From a virus, in IMG/VR virus record IMGVR_UViG_3300028893_000008, positions 1 through 26,039 of that record: a DNA stretch of 26,039 bases, one strand, 5' to 3'. Made by a program: the position numbers and the translations under genes. The first letter of the stretch is position 1; each line of letters opens with the position of its first letter. Positions 5,726 to 19,945 of this stretch are shown here, piece after piece. The notes beneath the pieces were generated by a model. It saw nothing but the letters and a program-made list of their open reading frames with translations, did not search any database and was not told the origin of the DNA.

Positions 5726-5883
5726 GAGTCATTACCTCCCATGGTCTGGCCCATTATCGGACCTTGTTCCTGAGATAAAGATGGGTCTTGATCCAGATAC
5801 GTTCTTCTAAATAACGAAACTATACCTGGGAAGGTAAACCTGACCGGATCGTGCCGATCATACTCAGCAAAGTAAAAACCCAA
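5722..5883 (-). other. out-of-frame C-terminal extension of the HTH gene
   Basis: In the -1 frame relative to the HTH gene, 53 sense codons run from 5883 to a TGA at 5722. They encode FYFAEYDRHDPVRFTFPGIV, then SLFRRTYLDQDPSLSQEQGP, then a short MGQTMGGNDS end. An in-frame TAA at 5884-5886 blocks any longer start, and the first ATG would leave only ten codons, so it is unlikely to be a separate gene. Its TGA overlaps the next gene's ATG as ATGA, the junction style used throughout the window. The frames join at a GGGTTTTT run (5874-5881). One extra T there would give a continuous 203-residue protein. Sequence error, mutation or -1 ribosomal slippage are all possible. Confidence 0.65.
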
Positions 5884-6332
5884 TTAAAAGTGGCGGGATG
5901 TGTCTTCTTGAGCTTTCTAAGAGCTCCGCTACAAATAAGTGATATGTTAAAACCTGTACATTTCCATTCTCTCGCAATCTCCACAAATTTAACACCAGCT
6001 AAAGCTCTTATCAAGACCGCGTACATCTTTTGGGAACACTCCTTCTTTATAATATCAAGATGTTCTGGGGCCGTTCGCATCAGCTCACTAACGATCCTTA
6101 TCTTGGTACGACATCGTTTCATTATATAACTAACAGCGGGTTGGGCCATATTCAGAAGATAACCAATCTTGGCCTGGGTACGACCTTGCAAGTACAATGG
6201 GTAATAGTCAAACACTTTCCTCTCGCGTCGTGTAAAATAACACTGCCGACATGCCTCAATAATACTGTGCTCCGAATAGTTGAAAAGATTGAGAAACTCA
6301 ATTACCTCTATAATTGTTCTAAATCTTGGCAT
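5820..6332 (-). CDS. tandem helix-turn-helix protein (sigma region 4-like), probably frameshifted
   Basis: This frame gives 170 residues. Residues about 36-80 (RRERKVFDYYPLYLQGRTQA onward to VSYIMKRCRTKIRI) look like sigma-70 region 4 or a related HTH. A second HTH-like unit (VLIRALAGVKFVEIAREWK onward to ALRKLKK) follows at about 107-147. It may be a phage transcription factor for late genes or a small terminase DNA-recognition subunit; its place just before the packaging genes fits both. The C-terminus after about residue 150 is doubtful, because an overlapping -1 frame continues in more convincing coding sequence to a stop at 5722 (see the separate entry). The ATG lies inside the end of the upstream gene with no clear ribosome binding site. 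Confidence 0.75.
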   Translation of the reverse strand: MPRFRTIIEVIEFLNLFNYSEHSIIEACRQCYFTRRERKVFDYYPLYLQGRTQAKIGYLLNMAQPAVSYIMKRCRTKIRIVSELMRTAPEHLDIIKKECSQKMYAVLIRALAGVKFVEIAREWKCTGFNISLICSGALRKLKKTHPATFNWVFTLLSMIGTIRSGLPSQV

Positions 6333-7994: not shown

Positions 7995-8825
7995 TCAAAA
8001 TTGGAATGTTAACTGGTCATTGACCAGATCTCTCAGTTCGAGCATAATTTTACTAAAAACCTCTGTATAGGTAATATTAAGATTGTGTGTTTTAATAAGC
8101 TCGGACCAGTTTATTTCGGTATTGTACTTAATCGGATCAACTAACCCGGCTTGCGCAAAAGCTAAAATACGTTCCTGACTAGTTGGGTTAGAACTGTCCG
8201 CGATCAGGTTTTGCTCATCAACGACAGCGTACGATGACCATGTTTTAGAATAATTAACGTCTAGACCGGTTCCAAGTACAACAATTTCACATTTTTTGAG
8301 GTTAACAAACGGGGCAATAACTTTTATCTTATTCCTGCGGTTAAGTTTTGTAACAGCGTTAATCGCTTCAACATATTCTGGGGTACAATCCCAATAACCA
8401 TAAACGTCTCGCTGTTGTGCACCATAATACACAACGTGACATCCATTAGCTTCGGCGTAAGACAAACAAATGCCTAGTAAAATAGTGTTTCTGAAAGGTA
8501 CATATGTAACAGGCTGGTCTTCGTTACCTCTGATCTCCTCCAAAGTGGGGACTTTTACAGCGTCGCTAACTAAAGCTGTGCTCTTGCCGAGCAAGTCTTT
8601 CATAAAAGAAATGTCGACTATCTTGTGATCATGTACTTCAACTCCGATTGCTTTGCCAATTTCCTTAAGTTCGTTTACTTGATACCTGGCCATTTCCAGC
8701 TCTATTTTGTGCTTCTGACCATAGTAGAACGATATGGGATATATTTCGTTCCGCAATTCTTTAACAACGAAATGCGTCAAAGTTGTTGAATCTAAGCCAC
8801 CTGATATTGAAACTACTGCTTTCAT
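7995..8825 (-). CDS. queC: QueC-like 7-cyano-7-deazaguanine synthase lacking zinc cysteines
   Basis: This is a 276-residue member of the ATP-pyrophosphatase family, somewhat longer than typical QueC. The PP-loop is SGGLDST (8-14). The QueC-specific VTYVPFRNTILL (106-117) and YYGAQQRD (133-140) segments are present. QueC converts 7-carboxy-7-deazaguanine through an amide to preQ0 using ATP and ammonia. The C-terminal zinc site is degenerate: the usual TWSCY is TWSSY (S198), and the CGxCxxC before ER..AF is DSSNPTS, giving D210, N213 and S216. The remaining KTWS, ERILAFAQAGLVDPIKY context is well kept, so alignment is firm. It has an AAAGGAGG ribosome binding site and is the first gene after the repeated promoter-like element. 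No amidotransferase (Gat) fusion is seen. Confidence 0.88.
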   Translation of the reverse strand: MKAVVSISGGLDSTTLTHFVVKELRNEIYPISFYYGQKHKIELEMARYQVNELKEIGKAIGVEVHDHKIVDISFMKDLLGKSTALVSDAVKVPTLEEIRGNEDQPVTYVPFRNTILLGICLSYAEANGCHVVYYGAQQRDVYGYWDCTPEYVEAINAVTKLNRRNKIKVIAPFVNLKKCEIVVLGTGLDVNYSKTWSSYAVVDEQNLIADSSNPTSQERILAFAQAGLVDPIKYNTEINWSELIKTHNLNITYTEVFSKIMLELRDLVNDQLTFQF

Positions 8826-9863: not shown

Positions 9864-10718
9864 TTATACAAAACTACGATTGCTCTTGTACCATTTGTTC
9901 CCTTTTTTGATACGACTAATGTACGCGATCGCGTTATGTTTATGAATCGATTCGAAACTTTCTACTTTAATGCGGAACCATTTAATGTTCTTGAGTTCCG
10001 ATAGCTTATCGGCAACTCTTCTTGCGAGCCCTTCTACAAAAACAGGATTATCGTAAGCATGTTCTGTGACGTGCTTCTCGTCTGGTCTTTTAAGGATAAC
10101 ATAAACAGGCGAGCTCGCTGACTGCTCTACAATGTCAATTAGCGTTTCAAAATAAACCCCGGGAACTTTGGTAACTTCGACTTGTACTGTTACTTCAGCA
10201 CGTTGGTTATGCGCTCCTTTTCCAATTTGCTTTTCATGATCGGTCAGACACATTGCTCGTGAACACGGACAAACTGTTTGCACCGGAACTGTTACTTGGA
10301 CAAAATGTCGGTACGGAGGATAAATCACGGATATCGCAGAATCGTAAACGAGAACGGCTCTTTTTTTAGTTACTGGCGCTATAGAAGGTTTCGCGAACCC
10401 AAAAGAAAACTTCAGGTATATATCTTCTAGCCCGAGACGATCTCGTAATCGTTTCGCTATCTCTTTAAAAGATCGCGGCGACAGGAACTTTCCCGAATGC
10501 TCAAACAAAACTTCTGGTAGTCGAGACATGTCTACGCCCTTTCGGGTTCGCGGCAGTCGCGCATAAGCATCGACCCGAGCAAGGACGTGCCGAACTACAA
10601 GGTCTCGGGATGAGCTACGAATCAATGATAACGGAACTTCTACGTTTGACACACCTGCCTTATCAACGACCATTCTTATTGGGTCTGGTTTACGTTGCTC
10701 GTCAACAAGCTCTTTCAT
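9864..10718 (-). CDS. folE2: GTP cyclohydrolase IB (FolE2)
   Basis: This 284-residue protein matches the type IB GTP cyclohydrolase family, at normal length. Diagnostic segments are GVDMSRLPEVL (61-71), the metal-binding cysteine motif VCPCSRAM (149-156), HNQRAEV (170-176) and the C-terminal SFESIHKHNAIAYI (254-267). The enzyme hydrolyses GTP to dihydroneopterin triphosphate and formate, the first step to 7-deazaguanine. The folate pathway also uses this product, but with QueE, QueC and a DpdA-like enzyme in the window the modification pathway is the likely destination. It begins with a GGGAGGT ribosome binding site and overlaps the DNA polymerase stop by 17 bp. Known 7-deazaguanine phages more often carry type IA FolE. 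Confidence 0.92.
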   Translation of the reverse strand: MKELVDEQRKPDPIRMVVDKAGVSNVEVPLSLIRSSSRDLVVRHVLARVDAYARLPRTRKGVDMSRLPEVLFEHSGKFLSPRSFKEIAKRLRDRLGLEDIYLKFSFGFAKPSIAPVTKKRAVLVYDSAISVIYPPYRHFVQVTVPVQTVCPCSRAMCLTDHEKQIGKGAHNQRAEVTVQVEVTKVPGVYFETLIDIVEQSASSPVYVILKRPDEKHVTEHAYDNPVFVEGLARRVADKLSELKNIKWFRIKVESFESIHKHNAIAYISRIKKGNKWYKSNRSFV

Positions 10719-13092
10719 GACTGACCTCCCTTAGCTTGTTCTTAAATTCTGATAAGTTATCAAGTTCAGCGGTCGATCCTAGACGATATCCTATTTCACA
10801 ATCAAATGGAATGTCTACGAAAAATCCTTTAATGCGCTTTCCCAAAATGCCAAACATTATGGCTAATGCTTCTTCGCCCTTGTCTTCCGGAATCTCGTAG
10901 GTAAGGGAATCGTGAACAGTTAGTACTAAGTAGCACCCTAAATGTTTGATCTTCTCATAGACCAAAGCTCCTTTGAACATAGTATAATCAGCTACGGTAC
11001 TCTGGGGCAAAAAGTTAAGAGCTTGACGTTCTTCAGAAGCCCTGACTTCGAAATCTGGTGAGTTTATACCTGGAAATCGGCGAATTCGTCCGAAAAAGTT
11101 TCGGAGGTACCCTTGTTGTTTTGCGATAGCAACTACTTCTTTGCAGAACTGGTACGTCTTCGGAAAGGATCTAAAGAACGAATCAATAATATTCTGGGCT
11201 TCCTCAATGGACATATTATGTTCTTCGGCTATAGATTTTGCGCGTCGACCGTACATAATTCCGTACACTACAAATTTTGCAAGTCTTCGACGCTCATCGT
11301 CGACTTCTTCGATCGGAATATGAAACACTAAGGAGGCAATGACTTTGAGAGGATCATATCCGCTCTCGAACGCTTCCTTCAATTTATCGTCTTTCGCATA
11401 ATGACAAAGAGCTCGGAGTTCGGCTTGCTTGAAATCAATGTTCGCTAGAAAATATCCCTTTTCTGAGATAAAAATGTCTTTAACTTCTTTATCCCTCGGA
11501 ATGTTCTGGAGATTCGGTTCACGGCTGGCAAGACGACCGGTCGTAGTACCGACTAGCGTATAATTTGTATGTAACCGATTGTTACTGTCACATAATTTGA
11601 GGAAGTTCTTAAAGTACGTACTCGACAATTTTTTCTTCTTACGATAATCCAATAACAAATCTATTACTGGGTGGTAGTTGCGCAGATTCTCGAGAGTAAA
11701 CGTATCGGTTGACGGATTTCCCGACGCTGTTTTATAAAGTACGGGTAGCTTTAGTTTCTCGTAAAGAACTCTCGATAGGTCCCGGACTGAGTTAATATTA
11801 ATTTTCTCGCCGATCAAATCGAAAATGCGCTGTTCGATCACAACAAGATCTTGCTCATATTGCGCGGACAACCGTTTAACATAGTCAACGTCTATCTTAA
11901 CACCACGTATTCGAGTATCAACAAGCATTTGTATAGTCGGGATGCTCAGCTTGAGATGAAGTTTTGCGAGGGAATCCGGCAACAATTTTACCATTTCCTG
12001 GTATAAAAGAAACGTTGCGTGAGCGTCTGCACAATTATATTTGAGAACAATAGATGTATCAACGCCCCCGGGCCTATCTTCGTCAGCAAGAGCAACGTAA
12101 TCACTTTCGTACCCGCCTTTTCCAAGATACTTCCAAACAATGTTTTTGAGTCCGTACCTCTGAGCCGTCTCGTCTAATAAATGCGCGATGACCATAGTAT
12201 CACCGTGGAGGTTCTTACATTCTATACCAAATTCCTTTTTGAGAAACATTAAATCGAACATCGCATTGTGAAATATTTTCTTAGATTCGTTGCTAAATAA
12301 TCGTTTAAGATGGTCTATAATCTGACAAAGGTCAGAATCGGACCAATACAGCGAACCATCTGGTCTTCTAACAGGGAACCCGAATGTAAGGTCGCCGGAT
12401 GAAAATGCCATCGTAAAAATTACAGATTCATACAAAATATCCGACGTTTCGATATCACAACTCCACATCGGCTTCTGTTCTAGTAATTTTATGTACCGAA
12501 TAACTTCATTCTTGTCAAGAAGTATCTTGTAGTTTTCGAAGGACCAGGCATGTGGATCCGCTTTGAGCCACTCAACAACTCGCCTGAGCGTTTGTTCGAC
12601 AGCCTTTGTCTTGGACGGGTCACGTAAAAGAGCAGCTGGGTGGTAAGTCGGTACAAAAATAGTACCGTTTTGTCTAAAAGGGATCCCTTCCGAATTCTGT
12701 AAATTGCGCCTGTTCCCGAGAAAACGTTTAACAGCAACGTTCCCGAGCAACAAAACAATTTTTGGTCTGGCCTTGGACAATTCCTGATCTAGCCGGATAC
12801 TGCACATTTTTATTGCATCGGTAGGAGGAGCGGTATTGTTACCGTTTGCATCGGTGGGTCGGCAAGCGACGACGTTCGTAATAAAACATTTAGATCGATC
12901 TATTCCGGTCTTTTGCAGCAACGATGTGAGAAGTTGACCAGACCGACCAACGAAAGGAGAACCGTATTTCTCTTCTTCAGCACCAGGCGCCTCTCCAATA
13001 ATTACTAGTTCGGCATTTGTCGGTCCAATACCGAAAACAGGTTTCTTTCCGTACAAAGGACAACCTCTACAGGTTAGCGCGTTTTCTTCCAT
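10702..13092 (-). CDS. family-4 uracil-DNA glycosylase fused to DNA polymerase I
   Basis: This 796-residue protein has three parts. Residues 1-180 are a family-4 UDG with Fe-S ligands C8, C11, C77 and C97, GEAPG (33-37), PFVGRSGQLL (46-55) and YHPAALLR (150-157). Residues about 205-370 are a 3'-5' exonuclease with D213/E215, N276/D280 and Y352/D356, all intact. Residues about 375-775 are a family A polymerase with motif A DFKQAELR (D553, E558), motif B RRLAKFVVYGIMYG (K606, Y610) and motif C VHDS (H727, D728). It would replicate the phage genome and could detect or remove uracil. A UDG-related domain on family A polymerase is known in SPO1-type phages. There is no 5' nuclease domain. The second carboxylate of motif C is Ser, and Tyr replaces Phe in the O-helix, as in T7 polymerase. 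Confidence 0.95.
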   Translation of the reverse strand: MEENALTCRGCPLYGKKPVFGIGPTNAELVIIGEAPGAEEEKYGSPFVGRSGQLLTSLLQKTGIDRSKCFITNVVACRPTDANGNNTAPPTDAIKMCSIRLDQELSKARPKIVLLLGNVAVKRFLGNRRNLQNSEGIPFRQNGTIFVPTYHPAALLRDPSKTKAVEQTLRRVVEWLKADPHAWSFENYKILLDKNEVIRYIKLLEQKPMWSCDIETSDILYESVIFTMAFSSGDLTFGFPVRRPDGSLYWSDSDLCQIIDHLKRLFSNESKKIFHNAMFDLMFLKKEFGIECKNLHGDTMVIAHLLDETAQRYGLKNIVWKYLGKGGYESDYVALADEDRPGGVDTSIVLKYNCADAHATFLLYQEMVKLLPDSLAKLHLKLSIPTIQMLVDTRIRGVKIDVDYVKRLSAQYEQDLVVIEQRIFDLIGEKININSVRDLSRVLYEKLKLPVLYKTASGNPSTDTFTLENLRNYHPVIDLLLDYRKKKKLSSTYFKNFLKLCDSNNRLHTNYTLVGTTTGRLASREPNLQNIPRDKEVKDIFISEKGYFLANIDFKQAELRALCHYAKDDKLKEAFESGYDPLKVIASLVFHIPIEEVDDERRRLAKFVVYGIMYGRRAKSIAEEHNMSIEEAQNIIDSFFRSFPKTYQFCKEVVAIAKQQGYLRNFFGRIRRFPGINSPDFEVRASEERQALNFLPQSTVADYTMFKGALVYEKIKHLGCYLVLTVHDSLTYEIPEDKGEEALAIMFGILGKRIKGFFVDIPFDCEIGYRLGSTAELDNLSEFKNKLREVSHERAC

Positions 13093-13289
13093 CTTTGAAC
13101 TATCTCCTTTACCTCTCCGATGAACCCTCTGCGCTTGTACAAAAAGGCGACGCCGTCTAATTTCTTGTTTTTGAACACAATGTACCAGATTCGGAAATCT
13201 TTAGACTTTGACAAGTACCTAATAAGCTCGCGATCGTTCGTATAAAGGCCAGGAAACTTCTTATATTTAACATACACATTAAGTCGCAT
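13074..13289 (-). CDS. small basic hypothetical protein
   Basis: This is a 71-residue, strongly basic protein with aromatic and hydrophobic content (VYVKYKKFPGLYTND, DFRIWYIVFKNKKLDGVAFL) and a basic C-terminal helix (GEVKEIVQRWKKTR). It starts inside the end of the resolvase-like gene with GAGAGG upstream, and its end overlaps the start of the polymerase gene by 19 bp. The position between resolvase and polymerase and the basic charge suggest a nucleic-acid-associated role, but no family is recognised. Confidence 0.6.
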   Translation of the reverse strand: MRLNVYVKYKKFPGLYTNDRELIRYLSKSKDFRIWYIVFKNKKLDGVAFLYKRRGFIGEVKEIVQRWKKTR

Positions 13290-13806
13290 TTATGAACCTC
13301 TCGAGTTTTTTAATCAAAGTACTAAATTTTATAACGAGAAACCTGTCACATAAAGAATACTCTCGTAGCTGGCGATGGTAAAAAATAAAACTTTTTCTGG
13401 ACTTCTTGATTGTACCCGAAACTTCGACCTTCTCGCCAAAAATTGACTCATAATCGTTTTTCCGAACACAACACCAGATCCGGTCCGCTTTCACGCCTTT
13501 AAACGAAAACACGAGTAACGGAATCTTGTTTATTTCGGTAGCTTCTTTCTCAAGTTTCGGGAGCCATTCAGAATCGAGCCTAAAAACGGGCCCTTTCTTT
13601 GACCTTGCTCGTCGGGATTTGCATTCTATCAAGAATTGGGAGGGTAAAAAAGGAATGTTCGTAACAATATCCCCTTTAAGGCCACGGATACTTCCGGACT
13701 GTGGTACTCGAAATGTTCTTTCGGACATCGGAACCTCTCGATTTTGTTTAGCAAGACGTAAAAGGATTTCCTCGACCTCGTGCTCTAATGCATACCCTTT
13801 GTTCAT
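13279..13806 (-). CDS. Holliday-junction-resolvase-like PD-(D/E)XK nuclease
   Basis: This 175-residue protein has the layout of Hjc-type resolvases. GYALEHEVEEIL (4-15) supplies the first Glu, as in archaeal Hjc. RVPQSGSIRGLKGDIV (33-48) carries the conserved Ser and D46. FLIECKSRR (58-66) carries E61 and K63 of the (D/E)xK site. Such enzymes cut four-way junctions and debranch phage DNA before packaging. The gene overlaps the Rad50 C-half stop as ATGA and leads into DNA polymerase, so a recombination or repair role fits. Another restriction-like endonuclease is possible. The C-terminal third (about 115-175) is basic and less recognisable. Confidence 0.75.
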   Translation of the reverse strand: MNKGYALEHEVEEILLRLAKQNREVPMSERTFRVPQSGSIRGLKGDIVTNIPFLPSQFLIECKSRRARSKKGPVFRLDSEWLPKLEKEATEINKIPLLVFSFKGVKADRIWCCVRKNDYESIFGEKVEVSGTIKKSRKSFIFYHRQLREYSLCDRFLVIKFSTLIKKLERFINAT

Positions 13807-14381
13807 GATACTACTGACTTTGACCCGTCAAAGTTAACTCGTATTATCCTATCTGAGTGTTCGGCAACTCGTTCCTGGTGCGTAATAAGAATTATCTGTG
13901 TATCAAACTTATGCGAAAAAGTTCTAAGTAATAACCCAAATTGTGGTTGGTATTCTTTGCTAATGTTGCTACCTACTTCGTCAAGAATAAAAGGAAACTT
14001 GTTTGGTAAATAATTTGAAAGAATGAACCGCAACACAGTAGATACTGTGTTGCGAATGCCACCGCCGAAACATAATAAACTTCTAAAATGATCCTCTTTA
14101 CCAATTTTAAAAACATAGCCTGGACGACCTGCACTCGAAACATCTTCAACTTTAAAAGACAATCCTTCCTGATAAATAGATGATAAACTTTCGGTCACGA
14201 GCTGTTCGATTGTCGTTTTTATATTTTCGTTACCGACAACAACGGACTGGGAAAGCACGTTCTTAACCTTATGTAAAAGATCGAGATAGCTGCGGCGTTG
14301 TACAATTCGCTCAGATAATTCTTTGTATTTCTTTTCAAGGAGTTCCTTTTTTAACTTTAGTTGTGAAATAATATTTTTCAT
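13803..14381 (-). CDS. Rad50/SbcC C-terminal half (ABC ATPase signature and Walker B)
   Basis: This 192-residue protein begins with a short coiled coil and continues as the C-terminal ATPase lobe of an SbcC/Rad50-like protein. The signature motif is FGGGIRNTVSTVLRF (105-119), a GGG variant of LSGGE. Walker B is FPFILDEVGSN (129-139, D134/E135) and the switch His is in ILITHQE (H168). It cannot bind ATP alone, because the Walker A lobe is encoded separately at 15514-16491. The start follows the coiled-coil gene stop by 2 bp and lacks a ribosome binding site, so translation is probably coupled. With the N-half and the Mre11-like nuclease it would process DNA ends. Confidence 0.85.
   Translation of the reverse strand: MKNIISQLKLKKELLEKKYKELSERIVQRRSYLDLLHKVKNVLSQSVVVGNENIKTTIEQLVTESLSSIYQEGLSFKVEDVSSAGRPGYVFKIGKEDHFRSLLCFGGGIRNTVSTVLRFILSNYLPNKFPFILDEVGSNISKEYQPQFGLLLRTFSHKFDTQIILITHQERVAEHSDRIIRVNFDGSKSVVS
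14029..14054. repeat. 26 bp near-perfect palindrome inside the Rad50 C-half gene
   Basis: Twelve bases (CGCAACACAGTA) are followed by a 2 bp spacer and their exact reverse complement. The site lies within codons for the ATPase signature region (R-N-T-V-S-T-V-L-R). It could fold as a hairpin in mRNA or bind a dimeric protein, or it may reflect codon constraint only. Twelve perfect base pairs is more than expected by chance in a window this size. Confidence 0.7.
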
Positions 14382-14383
14382 GG

Positions 14384-14647
14384 TTAGATATTGAGGGATC
14401 CTAAATACTTTTCGAAAATTTGTTTTATCTCTGCAACTTTAGCTGAAATTTTTTCGATCTTTTTTCGGTTCTGTTCAATAACCTGGTCAATCTGATCAAA
14501 AGGGACGCCTCTTTTTTCGAGTTCGCTAATATATCTTTCTCTTTCCTTTTCGAGAACCGACAAGGTCGTTTGTAAAGAAATTTTCTTTTCTCTCAGTTTA
14601 ACAATTTCGTTTCTTAAACCAATGATTTCTCCGTATTCCTTATCCAT
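14384..14647 (-). CDS. small coiled-coil protein between Mre11 and Rad50 C-half
   Basis: This 87-residue protein is nearly all coiled coil: heptad-like Leu/Ile with Lys/Glu (IVKLREKKISLQTTLSVLEK, then a second helix after a GVPFDQ turn). It resembles a short helical hairpin. An excellent AAGGAGG ribosome binding site supports the ATG at 14647, which lies 34 bp inside the end of the Mre11-like gene. It is immediately followed by the Rad50 C-half. It could be a detached piece of the Rad50 coiled coil that brings the halves together, or an independent subunit. No zinc-hook CxxC is present. Confidence 0.75.
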   Translation of the reverse strand: MDKEYGEIIGLRNEIVKLREKKISLQTTLSVLEKERERYISELEKRGVPFDQIDQVIEQNRKKIEKISAKVAEIKQIFEKYLGSLNI

Positions 14648-15504
14648 GTAAAAGTCTCCTCCTTGACCTTACTATCATTGGGATACAATCGGTTCGAAAT
14701 CTCTTCAACGATATCATCTATTTTGTAAAAAGAACGGGTTTCTTGTTTACCAAATTTAGATACCAAACTAACAGTTTCTTGTTCAAACGTTCTAACAGTA
14801 AAAGGTACATCTGGAAAAACATTTTTCTTAAACTTGAACGAAAATGTCATTGGGTCAAAGATAATCTCCAAAAACCCGGATTCGTTGTACTCAGACGAAT
14901 CAATTCTCATTAAAGGGCCCGGGTTGAAAAAAGCACAGTTTTCGTACACTTCATAAAATGAGAAATGAAGATCGCCACATAAGAATATACACTGATCTAT
15001 CTTGTCTACCAAATCAGAAATCAAGGTCACTTTGTAGGGGAGCGGTCTTGGTGAAATAAGGTTATGAGTTACAACTAAATAATTCTTGAGGCCCTTGTAT
15101 AAATCGGAGGTATGATCTTTTGTAGGATAAACAACATAAAAAGGAACGTTATCAATAACGTTAAGGCCTGGGTTAAGAATTTTAACCAGGCCGGCGCTCG
15201 CTAAAGTTCCAATAGAGGTCCAACGAATACTTTTCGGCTCATACCCAACTAGATCGTGATTTCCTGGAACTATGTAAATCCTTTTTCCAAATTGTCTAAA
15301 TAAATCTATTACCTGATTTAGAAAACTAACATCGTCACAAACATACGTGTCGAAAAGGTCACCTCCGTGCAAAATGAAATCGACTTTACTGGATAAAATC
15401 GTTGAAATGCGATCCGTTATAACATTTCCAAAATTGTTAATTTCAATGGATTGCGAAGGCAAACTTTTAAGGTGCCAGTCAGTTGTGTAAATAAATGAGA
15501 CCAT
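14614..15504 (-). CDS. Mre11/SbcD-like DNA exonuclease
   Basis: This 296-residue protein is a calcineurin-like phosphoesterase of the SbcD/Mre11 type (T4 gp47 role). Motifs in order are TTDWHL (D9, H11), LHGGDLFD (D49), VPGNHDL (N82, H83), VVTHN (H147) and LCGDLH (177-180). The last motif is normally GHxH; here the first His is Asp (D178). NPGPLMRID (194-202) follows, as in the family. The C-terminal 80 residues would be the capping and Rad50-binding part. The nuclease trims double-strand ends with Rad50 ATP control. It lies between the two Rad50 halves. AAGGAGG precedes the ATG. Confidence 0.88.
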   Translation of the reverse strand: MVSFIYTTDWHLKSLPSQSIEINNFGNVITDRISTILSSKVDFILHGGDLFDTYVCDDVSFLNQVIDLFRQFGKRIYIVPGNHDLVGYEPKSIRWTSIGTLASAGLVKILNPGLNVIDNVPFYVVYPTKDHTSDLYKGLKNYLVVTHNLISPRPLPYKVTLISDLVDKIDQCIFLCGDLHFSFYEVYENCAFFNPGPLMRIDSSEYNESGFLEIIFDPMTFSFKFKKNVFPDVPFTVRTFEQETVSLVSKFGKQETRSFYKIDDIVEEISNRLYPNDSKVKEETFTWIRNTEKSLV

Positions 15505-15513
15505 GAACCCTCC

Positions 15514-16491
15514 TTAAATAAGATCTCGAAATATATAATCTATGGAGGAACTGTCTAAAGAAGAACCGCACAACGGACAAATTCCTTTCTCCTTAAGTAA
15601 AGCTATCAAACTTGTTATCCTATCGTCAATCTCTGAAATAGTGTTTCTCAAAAGAGACTGGTTCTTTTCGATACTGGCACTGACTCTCTGAACGTCCCCG
15701 CAGGTATTAAGAAGATCAAGAAAATCCTCACAAGTTCGGTAATAACTATCAAGGTCTACGGAACCAAACTTATCAAGAACATCTCGAACTTTAACAATTT
15801 GGTCATTCAGGCTCTCGATCGCTTCTTTGTAAAACGAAAGAACTTTATTTTGCTCCTGAAGATCGACCATTTTCTTTTCAAGTTTTTCAAGTTTATCGGC
15901 GAGTGCCTCTAGTTTATCAAGAACCCGGAGTCTCTTAAGATTCTGTTCAACACTCTTCTTTTCGCGCTCGACCTGTTCAATTTCTTCATTAACTTTCTTA
16001 ATCTCGAGAGATACGTTCTTAATTGTTTCATTAAGAAGATTTAGACCGGTAACCTTTCCGATATAAGAACTGCGAACCGTAGATGGTTCATGAATTAGAA
16101 AAGAATTGTTATCTTGAAATCCTACAAAAGCTAGATAATCATCAAGATCGGATATATTTAACAAATTCTTTATTTCGTCAGGATAACTTTTACCAAAATT
16201 GTCAAATCTATATTCCTGACCATCTTTCCTGACAATAGCAGAATTAATGGTCTCGCCACGAACTCGCTCTATCGTAAAAGAATCAGTTTCCACAACAACT
16301 CTACAAAGATCCGTACCTTTTCGAATAAAGCCGGGGTCCCATTCGTTAAACAAAGCAAACAGAATCGCGTTAAAGATAGCTGTCTTGCCCGCGTTAGTAG
16401 GGCCGACAATGCAGTTGAAATTTGGATTGAATTCTATAACTGTGTCCTCATGAGATTCAAAGTTTTCCAGTTGAATTTTTAGGATCTTCAT
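15514..16491 (-). CDS. Rad50/SbcC N-terminal half ending at the zinc hook
   Basis: This 325-residue protein begins LKIQLENFESHEDTVIEFNP, typical of Rad50/SbcC. Walker A is GPTNAGKT (30-37) and the Q-loop segment is AFVGFQDNN. From about residue 155 to 295 it is coiled coil. It ends with a zinc-hook CPLCG (C305, C308) only 17 residues before the stop. In ordinary SbcC the chain folds back through a second coiled coil to the C-terminal ATPase lobe; here that lobe is a separate gene at 13803-14381. The start overlaps the upstream zinc-ribbon gene as ATGA-like spacing, with AAAAGGAAA upstream. It would act with the Mre11-like gene downstream. Confidence 0.9.
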   Translation of the reverse strand: MKILKIQLENFESHEDTVIEFNPNFNCIVGPTNAGKTAIFNAILFALFNEWDPGFIRKGTDLCRVVVETDSFTIERVRGETINSAIVRKDGQEYRFDNFGKSYPDEIKNLLNISDLDDYLAFVGFQDNNSFLIHEPSTVRSSYIGKVTGLNLLNETIKNVSLEIKKVNEEIEQVEREKKSVEQNLKRLRVLDKLEALADKLEKLEKKMVDLQEQNKVLSFYKEAIESLNDQIVKVRDVLDKFGSVDLDSYYRTCEDFLDLLNTCGDVQRVSASIEKNQSLLRNTISEIDDRITSLIALLKEKGICPLCGSSLDSSSIDYIFRDLI

Positions 16492-16736
16492 TTCTTTACT
16501 TTCCTTTTAGGCGGTAGTTCTGAAGTTGTTGAAGTACCAGAACTGGAAATCCACCACACCTGTCGTGACAGAAATGGTTCCGACAACACATACGGGTAAC
16601 GGTAAGGATACACTGTCACGTTCCCGCTCGCGCTCTTGTATTCACCCAAACATTTTGGACAAACATAACAAAGCAACTCGCAGGAATAATAATCTGTTGG
16701 TCGCCCACAAAAAGCGCATTTATTTTTTTGTTTCAT
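16488..16736 (-). CDS. small zinc-ribbon-like protein
   Basis: This is an 82-residue protein with two CxxC knuckles, CAFCG (7-11) and CYVCPKC (23-29), which probably bind zinc. A Tyr/Pro-rich segment (VTVYPYRYPYVLSEPF) follows, with a Ser/Thr-rich then basic tail (ELPPKRKVKK). AGGAGG precedes the ATG at 16736, and both ends overlap neighbours (RecA upstream, Rad50 N-half downstream). It may be a DNA- or RNA-binding accessory of recombination; no family is recognised. Confidence 0.7.
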   Translation of the reverse strand: MKQKNKCAFCGRPTDYYSCELLCYVCPKCLGEYKSASGNVTVYPYRYPYVLSEPFLSRQVWWISSSGTSTTSELPPKRKVKK

Positions 16737-17665
16737 CTCAAAGATTCCTCCTGTTTTAAAAACCTAGTTAAATCTTCTATTTGTACAGAATTATACATTT
16801 CGTCGTAACTCGACCAAGATTGATCCCCGAGAACATACTTGCGACCAGATTGCGCAATTACGCCTTTCTCCAACAAGTAGTCAAGAATAGACTGTTTCTC
16901 ATCTATTCCTTTACCGTAGTAGAAACTGAATCGTGCCTCACGGTACGGAATACCAACTTTGTTTTTCACAACTTTTACAACGATTTGATGACCGATCCTG
17001 TTCTTGTTCTCATCTTTAATAGCTGTGCCTTTTTCGACACGAACCCTTACGGACGCGTAAAATTTAAGGGCGCGGCCGCCTGGAGAGTCAGCTGGATCGC
17101 CGAAGAACATGATCGGACCTCGCTCTATCCTCTCCCGAAGCTGATTAATAAAGATGACGGTACATCTATTTCTAGCGAGAACGGGCGTTATCATTCGTAA
17201 TGCTTTAGAAAGCATTCTGGCCTGAATACCCATTGTCTGGTCTTCTATATCGCCCTCGAATTCACTTTTTGGCAGCAAAGCAGCGGTCGAGTCAACCACG
17301 ATCAGACTAAACCCGTTCTCTGCCAACGTTTTTATCCCTTCGAAAACTTGCTCACCATAGTCAGCTTGTAATACTAATAAGTCCTTGCTAACACCTACTT
17401 GGGCGGCCCAACTTGGATCGTAACTGTTTTCTATGTCGAATAACGCGCCTTTCTTGCCCGAACGTTGGACAGAAGCAAGAGCAAGTAAACTAATATAGGA
17501 TTTGCCACTGCCTTCGCTACCGAACAATTCTACGATTCGTCCTTCAGGATATCCTTTACCAAGAAGAAAGTCTAACAACGCAAGACCTGAGCTAAAGAAT
17601 CCGATATCTTCCTCAACTACCGGGAGAAGGCCTAGTTTTTTAAGCTCTTTTAGGATATCATCCAT
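16733..17665 (-). CDS. recA: RecA-like recombinase
   Basis: This is a 310-residue RecA core. Walker A is GSEGSGKS (49-56). Walker B is FSLIVVDSTAAL. The polymerisation and ATP-sensing FINQLRER motif is followed by the L2 region with PGGRALKFYASVRVRVEKG. It would catalyse strand exchange for recombination-dependent replication, the role of UvsX in T4. It is shorter than bacterial RecA and lacks most of the bacterial C-terminal domain, as is common in phages. It lies after SSB and a small protein and before the Rad50-Mre11 genes. The whole run reads as one recombination cluster. Confidence 0.95.
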   Translation of the reverse strand: MDDILKELKKLGLLPVVEEDIGFFSSGLALLDFLLGKGYPEGRIVELFGSEGSGKSYISLLALASVQRSGKKGALFDIENSYDPSWAAQVGVSKDLLVLQADYGEQVFEGIKTLAENGFSLIVVDSTAALLPKSEFEGDIEDQTMGIQARMLSKALRMITPVLARNRCTVIFINQLRERIERGPIMFFGDPADSPGGRALKFYASVRVRVEKGTAIKDENKNRIGHQIVVKVVKNKVGIPYREARFSFYYGKGIDEKQSILDYLLEKGVIAQSGRKYVLGDQSWSSYDEMYNSVQIEDLTRFLKQEESLR

Positions 17666-19222: not shown

Positions 19223-19945
19223 TTAAACACCTCTTTTTTTGTCAAAAGTATCTATATGAAGGCGCGGTGACAAATTAAAACCATGAGATAAGGCGAACTT
19301 CCAAGCCGGGGCTAAATGTTTGTGATAAACTGCTCTGGTTTCTCCTCTTGGCATTATCCATACCCTTCCCGGATCTATCCCGTATCTCTCAACAGTCTTT
19401 AATATAAATACACCGCTTTGTTCATCGTTGTACACAAACTTGACGGCATAATTTGAATGATGATAATGTTTACGGAACCATTCTAAAAGGTACGGAGTAG
19501 TATCGACTTTCCGTCTCTGAGTGGCTGGATCTTTGGGAGAAATGGTCCACCAAGAAACGTATTTTAGTAAAGATCGGATCAGTGATGGAACAACAGTGCC
19601 GTTAGTCTCAACTTCGATATAAGAGTTGTAGTCAGGTTGGATCATATCAATAATGGCCATCATCCATTCTGGTCCGTTCGAAAACAAAGGTTCATTTCCA
19701 GTGAACACGATCCACGGATGAGATTTTATTAACTGAATGTCCTCTTCTGACAATGACCTTGATAACGATCTTGCATAAGTAGAATCGCAGAAACTACACA
19801 TAAGAGGGCAACCTGTTGCTAGTCTAACAAATACTCTAGGATGCCCTGCGTTAGCACCTTCTCCCTGAAAGGACAAAAACACTTCAGATACCCTTACTTC
19901 TTTCTCTTGAGAATTTCTTCGATTGTTTTTAAAGTATCTGTCCAT
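19223..19945 (-). CDS. queE: 7-carboxy-7-deazaguanine synthase (QueE, radical SAM)
   Basis: This 240-residue protein has the QueE layout: EVFLSFQGEG (21-30), GHPRVFVRLATGC, and the Fe-S motif CPLMCSFC (C46, C50, C53). VETNGTVVPS, WTISPKD and a C-terminal PRLHIDTFD follow. QueE turns 6-carboxytetrahydropterin into 7-carboxy-7-deazaguanine using SAM and an iron-sulphur cluster. The usual TGGEP SAM-binding motif is TGNEP (82-86). It lies about 8.5 kb from folE2 and 10 kb from queC but on the same strand. GAGAGGT precedes the ATG at 19945, which overlaps the upstream metallopeptidase-like gene by 52 bp. The assignment is secure; activity is not proved. Confidence 0.92.
   Translation of the reverse strand: MDRYFKNNRRNSQEKEVRVSEVFLSFQGEGANAGHPRVFVRLATGCPLMCSFCDSTYARSLSRSLSEEDIQLIKSHPWIVFTGNEPLFSNGPEWMMAIIDMIQPDYNSYIEVETNGTVVPSLIRSLLKYVSWWTISPKDPATQRRKVDTTPYLLEWFRKHYHHSNYAVKFVYNDEQSGVFILKTVERYGIDPGRVWIMPRGETRAVYHKHLAPAWKFALSHGFNLSPRLHIDTFDKKRGV

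Follow-up and report, generated by a model that had tools for sequence, protein, structure and literature searches.

Rad50 is treated as a single chain whose arms meet at a zinc hook, and the roles of hook and coil are still argued. Phages also carry genes in pieces, such as the split nrdA of Aeh1, where a functional enzyme arises from separately encoded halves. Here we describe four genes on the minus strand of a 26,039-nucleotide viral sequence (IMG/VR record IMGVR_UViG_3300028893_000008, positions 1 to 26,039; this whole stretch is the window below) that probably encode a Mre11-Rad50 (SbcCD) machine whose Rad50 is divided into an N-terminal half (N), a small protein (S) and a C-terminal half (C), alongside an Mre11-like protein (D). 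Like the Mre11-Rad50/SbcCD systems of phage T4 (gp47/gp46), Escherichia coli (SbcDC) and archaea, the set combines a phosphoesterase with an ATPase of the structural maintenance of chromosomes (SMC) type, with head motifs, a coil and a CxxC hook, and it lies beside recA and other recombination genes. It differs from them in that Rad50 is two or three polypeptides, the hook sits at the C-terminus of N, S is additional, and the signature is GGG, not SGGE. Like genes in pieces, its halves are separately encoded, and in one phage an AP2-domain gene lies between them; unlike those cases, many viruses have the split in common with chromosomes, its position is a single structural point, and an extra subunit comes with it.

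Two other published groups come close. Yoshida et al. (2011, PMC3175470) described Mre11/Rad50 fusions and did not observe one P-loop NTPase segment in those of Anaerostipes and Bacillus phage 0305phi8-36. There, as here, Mre11 is joined to parts of Rad50; the available portion of that report mentions no separate gene for the C-terminal half and no counterpart of S. Fusions of D to N, with S and C encoded separately, would explain the cases lacking one segment as they appear in that portion. The archaea-specific SMC-related proteins (ASRPs; ClsN, Sph) are short zinc-hook SMC relatives of about 590 amino acids in a single chain, for which the part of the source at hand describes no Mre11 partner (PMC9389158); the ASRP profile NF045487 matches N at 3e-17. 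In PHROG, families 16465 (exonuclease), 15167 (ATPase) and 18563 (unknown) match members of N, of C and 15 of 46 members of S, respectively, and are listed separately, not linked as one Rad50; the window S itself did not match phrog_18563. A literature search that left out preprints and most subscription papers found no published description of a split Rad50 or SbcC.

In the window the order is N-D-S-C. N (15514..16491, 325 amino acids) has matches to PF13476 (1e-19) and phrog_16465 (6e-31) and contains, in order, a Walker A motif (GPTNAGKT, residues 30-37, 16381..16404), a Q-loop, a coil and a CPLC zinc hook (residues 305-308, 15568..15579), its sole CxxC, 17 residues before the stop. D (14614..15504, 296 amino acids) is a metallophosphoesterase like Mre11/SbcD (PF00149, E=4e-11; phrog_100, SbcD) with the metal motifs DxH, GDxxD and GNHD; its last motif is GDLH where GHxH is usual, as also in the related viral locus L003. 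S (14384..14647, 87 amino acids), which overlaps D by 34 nucleotides, is a small helical protein with two helices and a G-V-P turn. C (13803..14381, 192 amino acids; phrog_15167 at 2e-28) begins with a short helix, followed by the GGG signature (residues 106-108, 14058..14066), the Walker B Asp-Glu pair (residues 134-135, 13977..13982), the D-loop and the H-loop.

This arrangement bears out the initial annotation, which had placed the split at the hook, with the signature/Walker B half as a separate gene beyond an Mre11-like nuclease and an 87-residue coiled-coil protein; all four reading frames are intact. Each gene also has its own start, and three carry Shine-Dalgarno-like sites: aaggaggg for D and aaggagga for S, both strong, and a moderate aaaggaaa for N. 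C has none and its ATG lies 2 nucleotides past the S stop codon, so its translation is likely coupled to that of S. A frameshift in one continuous rad50 frame is excluded because D lies between N and C, and an assembly error is ruled out by the repetition of the order in independent assemblies. No full-length SbcC turned up elsewhere in the virus records searched, which include those of Bacillus phage vB_BboS-125 and Microcystis phage Mvi-JY20, both deposited as complete. N was the sole PF13476 match in the window record, a 26-kb fragment in which absence is limited evidence, and a single match, their own N, was found in each of the relatives' records of up to 56 kb.

The catalytic and hook residues are strongly conserved. 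G30, G35 and K36 of Walker A, Q126 of the Q-loop and both hook cysteines (C305, C308) are invariant in the 45-46 aligned N-halves, which share 17-28% identity with the window N; in 70 aligned C-halves D134 and E135 are invariant and the H-loop H168 is kept in more than 90%. Exactly one CxxC is present in 129 of 136 N-halves, and nearly all of these chains end shortly after it (2-21 residues in viruses, 8-44 on chromosomes), whereas in Mre11-Rad50 a single chain has a coil arm on either side of the hook. The GGG signature, found in at least 119 of the 136 loci, stands where LSGGE would be expected. All proteins tested score far below every NCBIfam cut-off for SbcC, SbcD, Rad50 or Mre11. In four chromosomal drafts (L183, L204, L212 and L232) N reads in two frames, through sequencing error or real breakage.

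The set recurs widely among viruses. The breadth of this system, which is largely chromosomal in Bacillota, had escaped the initial annotation. The same block, with the same lengths and order, is present in three further viral assemblies (one, L002, 98-99% identical; L003 and L004, 85-90%). Two scans of viral contigs, one using C-halves and the other N-halves, yielded 145 loci; a number of contigs were matched by both, and relatives lie in about 100 contigs. In none of the 145 were N and C in one frame. C-half matches occurred in only five distinct phages among 50,697 phage records. In vB_BboS-125, N is gp32 (ending CPLC plus nine residues), S gp34 and C gp35, with the AP2-domain gene between N and S and an unannotated Mre11/SbcD gene (L005:7424-8404 (+), that is, NC_048735.1 22423-23403). 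Mvi-JY20 has the order N-D-S-C, all annotated as hypothetical. N, S and D lie together in Tunturiibacter phage Tunturi_5, with C about 100 kb away. Microbacterium phage Magritte yielded D, S and C; no N was identified in it.

Besides very divergent viruses, bacterial chromosomes also have the set. When species genomes were scanned with C-halves of the Bacilli type, 285 loci matched and 80 of them were retained; the alignment used biases this sample to Bacillota. Most of the 80 are D-N-S-C operons, and 57 have the core-gene order recA-D-N-S-C-rny, in carriers such as Halalkalibacter, Alkalihalophilus, Thermoactinomyces, Peptoniphilus, Tissierella, Tepidanaerobacter and Thermosediminibacter. Seven have the phage order N-S-C-D and may be prophages. 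A Clostridia locus (L199) has a C-half and rny and no recognisable N, D or S. The module is found on plasmids as well; on one from Bacillus velezensis, NCBI annotates N as an AAA family ATPase, S as a hypothetical protein, C as ParA and D as a metallophosphoesterase. Among 249 Bacillota genomes drawn evenly, exactly 42 carry N (phrog_16465), and those same 42 carry C (phrog_15167). Canonical SbcC, called by profile TIGR00618 at E<=1e-20, is present in 98 of the 249, comprising one of the 42 split-bearing genomes and 97 of the 207 others (Fisher p=4e-9, the lineages not being independent); the one split-bearing exception, G117, has the phage-type order.

The four genes are inherited together. 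All lie on the same strand in 136 of 136 loci, and their distance matrices correlate strongly over these loci (r 0.71-0.90, against a permuted maximum of 0.23), with r 0.68-0.90 and a permuted maximum of 0.25 when viruses and chromosomes are also treated separately, although common ancestry by itself would account for some of the correlation. D is fused to N in six viral loci (L013, L032, L037, L056, L071 and L072). The two ATPase lobes are on separate genes in every locus but one: in a single Bacillota genome (L247, 4152-6254, minus strand) a 700-amino-acid chain that lacks coil and CxxC joins Mre11, the N-lobe and the C-lobe, and there is no S in its vicinity. By its sequence this chain looks to be a minimal single-chain Mre11-Rad50, and, single case as it is, it ties D, N and C together physically and ties S to the coil. 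On the C-half tree seven changes are needed between virus and chromosome labels, so the module has passed between the two several times. The window clade shares a very long branch with four other viral loci; neither the position of the clade nor the root is certain.

Given that a set cut at the hook recurs in divergent viruses and chromosomes, the halves almost certainly act together. We put at about 0.8 the probability that N and C assemble with D into a working Rad50 ATPase, with S presumably completing or capping the coil in trans. In this model, N would contribute the lobe with Walker A and Q-loop, plus a coiled arm ending in the zinc hook, C would give the signature/Walker B/H-loop lobe with its short N-terminal helix, and the two would form an ATPase head as separately expressed archaeal Rad50 halves do in crystals. 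The head would dimerise on ATP, and D would dock there and process DNA ends, serving phage RecA/UvsX recombination. Archaeal Rad50s are the nearest solved relatives of both halves, and in several crystals (1f2t A/B, 1ii8 A/B, 3qkr A/B) their N and C parts are distinct chains, which gives a two-chain head a precedent.

For S, we infer that its two helices substitute for the absent return strand by pairing with the N arm, probably near the hook; the earlier suggestion that the halves pair through coiled coils, perhaps with S as a bridge, is no more than plausible. AlphaFold2 models show a head in N and then two helices, 150-241 and 247-302, that run up to the hook (predicted local distance difference test, pLDDT, 84; predicted template-modelling score, pTM, 0.44), and in S helices 2-45 and 50-84 with a short turn between (pLDDT 94.8, pTM 0.58); from this output it cannot be read whether the helices of either protein fold back. 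A structure search with the S model returned nothing significant. S, of coiled-coil character and 75-128 amino acids long, has a gene of its own in all loci that yielded it and adjoins C in 111 of 136 loci. In the window, S and the first helix of C together would roughly match the N arm of about 155 residues. On chromosomes S stays at about 82 amino acids against an arm of about 310, and thus cannot be the whole return strand there; S as a plain return strand is unsupported for such long-arm types.

Several observations weigh against our interpretation. The length of S does not track that of the N arm, which ranges from about 145 to about 310 residues or more. The distant C of Tunturi_5 shows that operon linkage is not universal. 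The GGG signature and the GDLH motif of the window Mre11 may signify altered activity or chemistry. The evidence for mutual exclusion with canonical SbcC comes from lineages that are related and from one profile that could have missed divergent SbcC, and displacement is therefore supported, not proven.

The first of these points feeds the main rival on S, that it is a separate regulator or assembly chaperone binding C or D and no structural part of the arm. This is a serious minority possibility, consistent also with the retention of S as its own gene even where it abuts C, and with S-D and S-C distances that correlate better than S-N. The coiled-coil character of S, and its absence beside the one fusion that lost coil and hook, favour its belonging to the arm.

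That the module is a Lamassu-like anti-phage or anti-plasmid defence, and not a housekeeping or replication repair system, we regard as improbable. N and C have weak matches to the PADLOC profiles LmuB and mad3, of the sort expected for any SMC-type ATPase, and carriage on plasmids would suit a defence role. However, no effector gene was seen nearby: Lamassu has an LmuA effector beside the LmuB SMC, and the neighbours tested were RecA, a PDDEXK resolvase, PolA and replication genes. In the window the block is flanked upstream by a RecA/UvsX-like recombinase gene (16733..17665, minus strand; PF00154, E=1e-72), with one small gene intervening (16488..16736, minus strand), and downstream by a PDDEXK gene resembling a Holliday-junction resolvase (13279..13806, minus strand; PF24608, phrog_244, phrog_2002). 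The recA-rny setting on chromosomes and the near-constant absence of canonical SbcC where the module is present likewise speak against defence.

Slightly less probable still is that N and C belong to separate complexes with different partners. A C encoded far from N, as in Tunturi_5, would allow it, but an SMC-type active site needs the Walker A and Walker B of one head and the signature of another, and the identical occurrence in 42 of 42 genomes and the natural D-N-C fusion argue for one ATPase. Decay of a Rad50 gene into non-functional fragments by an inserted gene, which the frequent splitting of phage genes by homing endonucleases and the AP2-domain gene of vB_BboS-125 might suggest, is refuted by motifs invariant at 20-30% identity, start codons and gene limits preserved across more than 130 loci, a core chromosomal operon and the lack of any other Rad50 in the virus records searched; no homing-endonuclease gene lies between the halves in the window, and in the recA-rny operons no other gene separates D, N, S and C.

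We lean, with some reserve, towards a broader proposal in which about one-sixth of Bacillota species use a three-chain Rad50, mostly as their sole SbcCD, that is shared with many phages and has displaced the canonical enzyme. Such a Rad50 would make a working ring or tether without a continuous coil, and S would be a new subunit assembling arm or hook in trans. A natural Rad50 cut at the hook, with a small partner, would allow arm, hook and S to be removed or swapped gene by gene, and the L247 chain offers one natural case even without coil, hook and partner. The module likely supplies an SbcCD to bacteria that appear to lack a canonical one, and it offers a function for genes now named 'AAA family ATPase', 'hypothetical protein' or 'ParA'.

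Other genes of the window include the small one between recA and N, which encodes an 82-amino-acid protein with CxxC pairs, zinc-ribbon-like and without a family match. A DNA polymerase A of 796 amino acids (10702-13092, minus strand) has an N-terminal domain of the uracil-DNA-glycosylase superfamily fused to its exonuclease and polymerase domains, and a sigma-70 region 4 protein (5820-6332, minus strand) is possibly a phage sigma factor. FolE2, QueC and a QueE-like radical SAM protein (9864-10718, 7995-8825 and 19223-19945, minus strand) belong to the 7-deazaguanine pathway, which perhaps serves DNA base modification.

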